In this document: positions 11,616 to 13,851 of the stretch, piece after piece
How the letters are laid out: every line of letters starts with the position of its first letter
How positions within the stretch are numbered: the stretch's first letter is position 1
Assembly (NCBI GenBank): GCA_026707585.1
Contig: JAPOWQ010000057.1
Coordinates: 1-64,000, forward strand
Source of the DNA: Chloroflexota bacterium
GTDB lineage: Bacteria > Chloroflexota > UBA11872
Reading direction: 5' to 3'
Length of the DNA stretch: 64,000 bases
The notes under the pieces: generated by a model
The model's database searches: none
The model's input: only the letters and a program-made list of their open reading frames with translations
What the model was told of the DNA's origin: nothing
Position numbers and translations under genes: made by a program

Positions 11616-11687
11616 GGCCCCGTAGCTCAGTGGATAGAGCGGTGGTTTCCTAAACCATGCGCCCCGGTTCGAGTCCGGGCGGGGCTA
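11616..11687 (+). tRNA. tRNA-Arg (anticodon CCT)
   Basis: 72-base cloverleaf. Acceptor stem GGCCCCG/CGGGGCT with one G-U pair at the end, D-arm GCTC...GAGC with loop AGTGGATA, anticodon stem GTGGT/ACCAT around the loop TTCCTAA (anticodon CCT, reading AGG), and T-arm CCCGG-TTCGAGT-CCGGG. The discriminator is A, and CCA is not encoded. No duplicated 3' end was noticed nearby to suggest use as an integration site. Confidence 0.96.
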
Positions 11688-11805
11688 CCGCGCCGTACAG
11701 GCTCGGACACTGCGGGTCTCGCCCTGGCGAAGAGCGCCGTGGTCAATCTCCGGCATCATGCAGGCGTTCGCCCCAGATCGCGCTTTCCAGGCCGAGGAGC
11801 TGAGC

Positions 11806-12747: not shown

Positions 12748-13347
12748 ATGCGTCTGAAGCACTTCGTCGCGCTGGCCCTGCGAGTCGTGGCGCTTGCTCT
12801 GGTGGTTGGGATGGTGCCGCTCGTGGCCGGCTGCGGGGAAGCGGAAGGCGGCTCGGACGTCAGAGATCCCGAAGTCAGCGGCGCCCGGCTGGCCGACTTT
12901 GCGCGGCCCACCCCGGACGCCGCCGCCGGGCAGCCCGCGCCGGAGATCCGCGGCACGTCGTTCGACGGGACGGCCGTGTCGATCACCAACGACGGACGCA
13001 CGAAGGCGCTGGTGTTCCTGGCGCACTGGTGACCACACTGCCAGGCCGAGGTACCCGTGGTACAGGCCTTGGTGGACGCCGGGGGCGTGCCAGAACACGT
13101 GGACATCTACGCGATCGCCACAGCCATTGACTCAGGGCGGGCGAATTACCCGCCGGAGGCCTGGCTGGAACGCGAGGGGTGGACGTCGCCCGTTGTGGTG
13201 GACACCAAGGACGCGATCGCCAACGCCTACGGACTCGGGGGTTTCCCGTTCTGGGTGTTCGTGAACTCCGACGGCACGACGGCGCTGCGCGTGGGCGGGC
13301 GGATATCGGCCGACGAGCTGACCCTGATCCTCCAGCATTTGCAGTAG
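12748..13347 (+). CDS. Thioredoxin-like (TlpA/AhpC-type) lipoprotein with predicted selenocysteine at residue 95
   Basis: One frame of 200 codons, with an in-frame TGA at 13030-13032. Before it: a lipoprotein signal with lipobox LVAGC (Cys29), then a redoxin N-terminus (GQPAPEIRG, DGTAVSI, KALVFLAHW). Directly after: PHCQAEVPVVQ. The TGA thus falls on the first catalytic Cys of the thioredoxin motif, giving U-P-H-C where relatives have C-P-H-C (FLAHWCPHC). The fold then continues intact to the cis-proline loop GGFPFWVF (Pro167) and the C-terminal DGTTALRVGGRIS strand. A SECIS-like hairpin follows the TGA at the right distance. The protein would be an envelope-anchored thiol/selenol oxidoreductase. 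The alternative is a nonsense mutation or sequencing error, but TGA exactly at the active site argues against chance. Confidence 0.8.
13033..13074 (+). promoter_or_regulatory. Candidate bacterial SECIS hairpin downstream of the in-frame TGA
   Basis: Immediately 3' of TGA 13030-13032 the RNA can fold as an outer stem CCAGGCC (13041-13047) with GGCCTTGG (13065-13072, one bulged base) and a perfect inner stem GTACC (13051-13055) with GGTAC (13059-13063), closing a 3-base apical loop CGT. The apical loop lies about 24 bases after the TGA, inside the 16-37 base range usual for bacterial SECIS elements, and has a G among its first two bases. This is pattern fitting by eye, with no energy calculation. 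Confidence 0.55.
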
Positions 13348-13434: not shown

Positions 13435-13851
13435 GTGACCGGCGTGGTATTGCGAGTCGTGGCGGGCTACCAGATTCTGCTGGCGTCGGCGGTTGGTGTT
13501 CACTTCATCATCACGCCCCTTTACCATCCGGGCGGCGATGAGCCGTACACGGCATGGCACGTAATGGACTGGTTCATGGCCGTCAGCGTTGTCATCGCGC
13601 TGGGTCTGAGCTTCCGCCGCAAGCGCGCCCTGGAGGACGATCCCCAATGGCGTGACTACCTGGAAACGAACCTCACGTTCTACGGGGCAATCCTGCTGGC
13701 GCTCTGGTTTTTCTGGAACTGGTTCGGCGTCTTCAGCGGCCAGGACAGCGGGACGTTCTGGGGATTCATCAACCCGCTGTTCGTCATCGTCGTCGGATCC
13801 CTGGGCTGCCGCATGTGGAGCCGCCTGGCGGCCTTGAGCCGTTCGTCGTGA
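13435..13851 (+). CDS. Small four-helix membrane protein, paralogue of 53990-54421
   Basis: About 138 aa with four hydrophobic segments. It shares a distinctive block with the protein at 53990-54421: here TPLYHPGGDEP then WHVMDWFMAVSVVIALGLSF, there TPVYHDGGDTYPVWQVMNWFMAVAVVIALLISF, followed in both by a FFWNW segment. No known family was recognised. The GTG at 13435 gives this length; a second GTG at 13444 has better spacing from GAAAGG (13427-13432). It follows the selenoprotein gene by 90 bases on the same strand. Confidence 0.7.
   Translation: MTGVVLRVVAGYQILLASAVGVHFIITPLYHPGGDEPYTAWHVMDWFMAVSVVIALGLSFRRKRALEDDPQWRDYLETNLTFYGAILLALWFFWNWFGVFSGQDSGTFWGFINPLFVIVVGSLGCRMWSRLAALSRSS

Follow-up and report, generated by a model that had tools for sequence, protein, structure and literature searches.

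A very probable TGA-decoded selenoprotein with a thioredoxin fold in a genus of sponge-linked Chloroflexota

The gene at positions 12748–13347 of a 64,000-nucleotide stretch of Chloroflexota DNA (hereafter the window, meaning the whole of that stretch) very probably encodes a selenoprotein, with selenocysteine at UGA 13030. This reading was proposed in an earlier note made from the DNA letters. It is supported by the sel genes found in the genome, by the occurrence of the TGA codon in 11 species and by exchange of selenocysteine (Sec, U) with cysteine (Cys, C) at the same site. The source genome is 3.92 Mb and 95.6% complete; all genomes compared here are metagenome bins. The genus comprises sponge-linked bacteria, and near relatives use cysteine at the selenocysteine site. 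Ordinary annotation would split the gene, and would do so in at least 11 genomes.

The reading frame is on the forward strand. It begins with ATG at 12748 and runs for 94 codons to TGA 13030–13032. A further 104 codons are followed by TAG at 13345–13347. When read through, the product has 199 residues and carries the sequence LAHW-U-PHCQ. The features of the locus are as follows.

12748..13347, + strand: very probable selenoprotein gene read through TGA, encoding a 199-residue TlpA/ResA-like thioredoxin-fold lipoprotein with LAHW-U-PHC (frame, Pfam, conservation, dN/dS, AlphaFold)
12748..12834, + strand: predicted signal peptide and lipobox (VAGC, Cys29), from the translation read by eye and AlphaFold helix 4–21; putative lipidation
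13030..13032, + strand: in-frame TGA, predicted selenocysteine 95, first residue of UxxC; TGA in 11 species, TGC or TGT in all 92 aligned non-TGA relatives
13039..13041, + strand: TGC, codon of Cys98, the resolving residue of UPHC; Cys98 is conserved in all 48 aligned relatives
13042..13077 (outer ends approximate), + strand: candidate SECIS hairpin of bacterial type with CGU as its apical loop (13056–13058), from its distance and NGU loop
13246..13248, + strand: codon of Pro167 in the cis-Pro loop GGFPFW; invariant in 48 aligned relatives
13435..13851, + strand: small membrane protein gene directly 3′ of the selenoprotein gene; same gene order in TGA species and in the sister genus with Cys; matches no Pfam family

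The earlier note described two frames that join in phase across the TGA. This was borne out by Pfam, which assigned one Redoxin/AhpC-TSA/Thioredoxin_2 domain to residues 60–176 of the joined product, spanning the TGA. Redoxin scored highest on the joined product (40.5 bits; cut-off 26.6). The same note placed the TGA at the first active-site Cys (the LAHW-C-PHC column), and relatives do have a Cys codon there. The fold that it expected to be intact after the TGA is also present, GGFPFW loop included. At the N-terminus, VAGC (residues 26–29) was judged by eye to be a lipobox, and Cys29 may be lipidated. The AlphaFold model (mean pLDDT 90) has a thioredoxin fold, an N-terminal helix at residues 4–21 and a low-confidence stretch at residues 29–34.

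By sequence and by Foldseek, the closest matches with solved structures are ResA, StoA, Etrx2 and their relatives (target TM to ResA up to 0.87). The protein shares its fold, redox-motif position, cis-Pro and predicted membrane anchor with these proteins and with TlpA. Conversely, ResA, StoA, Etrx2 and TlpA have Cys in place of Sec, are about 20–26% identical to the product and, where NCBIfam models were scored, lie far below cut-off (StoA 45.8 bits, cut-off 210; ResA 41.3 bits, cut-off 170). No NCBIfam model reached its cut-off with the selenoprotein or with the three Cys relatives scanned. The WAxxUGC family (NF041054) is likewise a ResA-like selenoprotein and has a relative in the source genome. 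However, NF041054 has UGC where the window protein has UxxC, and the window protein scored 27.3 bits against a cut-off of 300.

Thioredoxin-like selenoproteins with a UxxC motif are already known. Those catalogued include the TlpA/redoxin types ‘Redoxin family protein’ (PF08534) and ‘Thiol-disulfide isomerase-like protein’ (cd02966), and the ‘Prx-like thiol:disulfide oxidoreductase’ (PF00578) (PMC13188914, PMC9312934). Prx-like 1, Prx-like 3 and Trx-like 1 are known prokaryotic examples (PMC2398784). Common to these and to the window protein are Sec as the first residue of UxxC, the TlpA/redoxin fold and many Cys homologues. The comparison is by description, and the descriptions available to us do not include the LAHW[U/C][PS]HCQ subfamily or its DsbB link. 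A literature search turned up no paper about the selenoproteins of Chloroflexota from sponges, nor any about the DsbB-linked family. What is new here is the dsbB neighbour of the Cys relatives, described below.

Exchange of U and C at the TGA column, anticipated in the earlier note, is clear. Among 113 aligned loci the codon is TGA in 21, TGC in 66 and TGT in 26, so that 92 Cys rows stand against 21 TGA rows; the latter are the same 11 species, some present in two collections. Cys forms occur in Chloroflexota, Acidimicrobiia, Actinomarina and Acidobacteria, among the best 80 of 437 relatives found in one collection, which were the ones compared. The TGA rows form one clade in a likelihood tree (support 100/98), nested inside the Cys family. 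In the sister genus, the gene at the same locus has a Cys codon and is a positional orthologue; both loci have Fic on the upstream side and, on the downstream side, genes for the small membrane protein and for a GFO/IDH oxidoreductase. Hence, with TGA forms in one clade among Cys forms and Cys at the same locus in the sister genus, we infer a single Cys-to-Sec change in the source genus. For UxxC families, replacement of Cys by Sec is an established trend (PMC1794560). An apparent Sec/Cys paralogue pair in genome G010 was ruled out. Genes flanking the Cys copy are at sister-genus identity (63–64%), the tree places the Cys copy itself among that genus, and contamination of the bin is 8%. The Cys-form contig (L054, G010:C24) is probably a stray.

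The Cys loci differ from the TGA loci in their upstream neighbour. Of 70 Cys loci, 59 have a dsbB gene as the immediate upstream neighbour, in the same orientation, whereas no TGA locus has one there; Pfam confirmed DsbB in five examples. Eleven Cys loci have no dsbB neighbour. Four of these (L100, L108, L120 and L143) have at most about 1 kb of upstream sequence, four (L077–L079 and L081) belong to the sister genus, counting its stray contig, and three (L105, L138 and L146) are unexplained. Since 59 of the 70 Cys relatives directly follow dsbB, the Cys-form family appears to consist of disulfide enzymes that DsbB oxidises. Pairs of dsbB with an LAHWC[PS]HC gene, found at 59 of the loci L080–L145, occur in Chloroflexota, Actinomycetota and Acidobacteriota. 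Each pair is apparently a two-gene oxidative unit. The known DsbA–DsbB pair offers a parallel, with a shared CPHC/UPHC motif and Cys relatives encoded beside DsbB. However, sequence and structure matches make the window protein TlpA/ResA-like and not a member of the DsbA family, and its lineage is without DsbB.

Neither DsbB nor VKOR was found in the TGA genomes or in three tested sister-genus genomes. A CcdA-like protein is present in all TGA genomes (partial in one) and in the same three sister-genus genomes. Its gene lies at a contig end and does not adjoin the selenoprotein gene. The only genus member with DsbB is G002, where the Cys gene adjoins the DsbB gene. The gene at 13435–13851 was considered as a redox partner; its product has a single Cys, matches no Pfam family and is not an obvious candidate.

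Our proposed mechanism is as follows. SelB and Sec-tRNA would decode UGA 13030 as selenocysteine, aided by the hairpin just after it. The resulting lipoprotein, TlpA/ResA-like and anchored in the membrane, would have its Sec-Pro-His-Cys active site on the outer side of the cytoplasmic membrane. Cys forms would carry disulfides in the manner of DsbA, and the product of the adjoining dsbB gene would re-oxidise them. The Sec form would instead act as a thiol-disulfide reductase or isomerase, with the CcdA-like membrane protein maintaining its reduced state; in catalysis, its selenolate would attack the substrate and Cys98 would resolve. Historically, a DsbB-coupled CPHC oxidase may have come first, followed by loss of dsbB in the bacterial family and then by replacement of Cys with Sec in the genus.

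The selenol, the lack of a DsbB or VKOR oxidase and the presence of a CcdA-like electron donor point to a reductase or isomerase role. Sec usually lowers redox potential, which suits reduction. Judged on gene presence and absence, we regard the case for a Cys-form thiol oxidase that became a CcdA-fed selenol reductase or isomerase in the Sec species as evenly balanced. It is rather doubtful that loss of DsbB itself turned a disulfide-forming enzyme into a reductase, with the later Cys-to-Sec change completing the conversion and being gained because the direction of redox chemistry had reversed.

Only a little less probable than the CcdA-fed role is a selenoprotein with a different one, such as a disulfide-forming oxidase with another partner, or a partner of peroxide or methionine-sulfoxide reductases. 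The first of these would suit the CPHC sequence, which is a DsbA-type motif, the CPHC variant of ResA (3c71) among the structural matches and the tie of the Cys relatives to DsbB. The second would suit the top Pfam score, which is for Redoxin/AhpC, and the MsrAB thioredoxin domain among the sequence matches. Both must be set against TGA genomes that hold a CcdA-like protein but neither DsbB nor VKOR, and against the usual effect of Sec on redox potential. The locus is a clean natural experiment on selenocysteine use, with same-locus orthologues in sister genera that differ in Cys or Sec at the active site. The two proteins lend themselves to a head-to-head comparison of redox potential and catalytic direction. 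The Cys/Sec switch, with its one inferred origin, is unusually clear; it is in a lineage without DsbB and follows the absence of the membrane oxidase partner.

The source genome contains all four components of the selenocysteine machinery that the earlier note had named. Matches were found for SelA (contig C65; 508 bits, cut-off 268), SelB (contig C39; 332 bits, cut-off 242), SelD (contig C49; 370 bits, cut-off 125) and tRNA-Sec with anticodon TCA (contig C20; 71 bits, cut-off 47). The SelD gene (C49:11963–12889, L064) has an in-frame TGA, in the context YAHGAG-U-ACK; on this evidence SelD is itself a selenoprotein. Apparently, the organism decodes selenocysteine in several genes, at least two of them besides 12748–13347.

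A second candidate selenoprotein gene was noted at L052:1988–2710 on the reverse strand (C30, about 99.0–99.7 kb), with the sequence MWASW-U-GCR. It is nearest to the WAxxUGC family NF041054 (158 bits, below the cut-off of 300), and its product has a C-terminal extension resembling tetratricopeptide repeats. The tRNA-Sec model also matched C23:106254–106339 (50 bits; gathering score 47). This sequence occurs in most relatives and is probably a class II tRNA, for Ser or Leu.

Directly after TGA 13030–13032 the RNA can form the hairpin GUACC-CGU-GGUAC, with the loop starting at the 24th base past the UGA. In 11 of 11 TGA genes there is a hairpin with a three-base NGU loop that starts 24 or 27 bases after the UGA. 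One group of TGA genes has GUACC-NGU-GGUAC and the other GCCUGU-CGU-ACAGGC. The SelD and WAxxUGC-like genes, too, have hairpins after their UGA, in which GU lies within or at the loop. An NGU loop at such a distance fits the published form of bacterial SECIS elements (the bSECIS model). Conversely, synonymous sites just past the TGA vary only slightly less than those elsewhere (0.53 versus 0.64), and the folding energy at the 13030 TGA is not beyond chance (z −0.75). Synonymous recodings of the same peptide fold as stably in 5–33% of cases, and three Cys-form genes fold as well as the TGA-gene hairpins. Structure energy was therefore ruled out as proof of a SECIS, since synonymous recodings rich in GC, and Cys genes in some cases, reach the same stability. 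No covariation supports the hairpin, as the two sequence groups use registers shifted by one codon. Thus, for the hairpin of the earlier note, position and loop stood up, whereas stability beyond the synonymous-codon null did not. The data are compatible with a SECIS directly after the UGA but do not prove it.

A rival reading is that the UGA is read with an ordinary amino acid, by near-cognate Trp, Cys or Arg insertion or through a changed genetic code. We consider this very unlikely, even though the hairpin is not statistically distinctive. The codon lies exactly at the redox-active Cys, in a genome with the full Sec machinery. Furthermore, among 10 neighbouring genes, TGA is the terminator of 5 and an inner stop occurs in none. 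Hence, the genetic code is not changed and TGA is not generally a sense codon.

The genus has 13 genomes, of which 11, each from a different species, carry the same TGA in a conserved gene order. Of the remaining two, one has a Cys codon there, and the gene is missing from the second, which is 76% complete. The earlier note had also considered that the TGA might be an isolated sequence error, which is at odds with its presence in 10 further species. The TGA-form proteins are 82–91% identical, and each gene has exactly 104 codons after the TGA, then TAG, with no frameshift. Calculated over ten full-length genes, the region that follows the TGA has a dN/dS of 0.08 at a mean dS of 0.44. Such a value argues for strong purifying selection, at the protein level and in the same frame, on the part that follows the TGA. 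A pseudogene, or a sequencing or assembly error that made TGA from TGC or TGT and left two halves that are not one protein, needs a change of only one base and might be suspected in metagenome bins, but conservation on this scale across 11 separately assembled species refutes it in practice.

A 24-base pattern for AHW-U-xHCQ matched 11 of 400 genomes in a sample of the phylum, all from this genus; the reversed control gave none among the matches listed. An Rfam search of the window returned nothing besides one tRNA, a tRNA-Arg (CCT) at 11616–11689 on the forward strand, which is the sole tRNA of the window.
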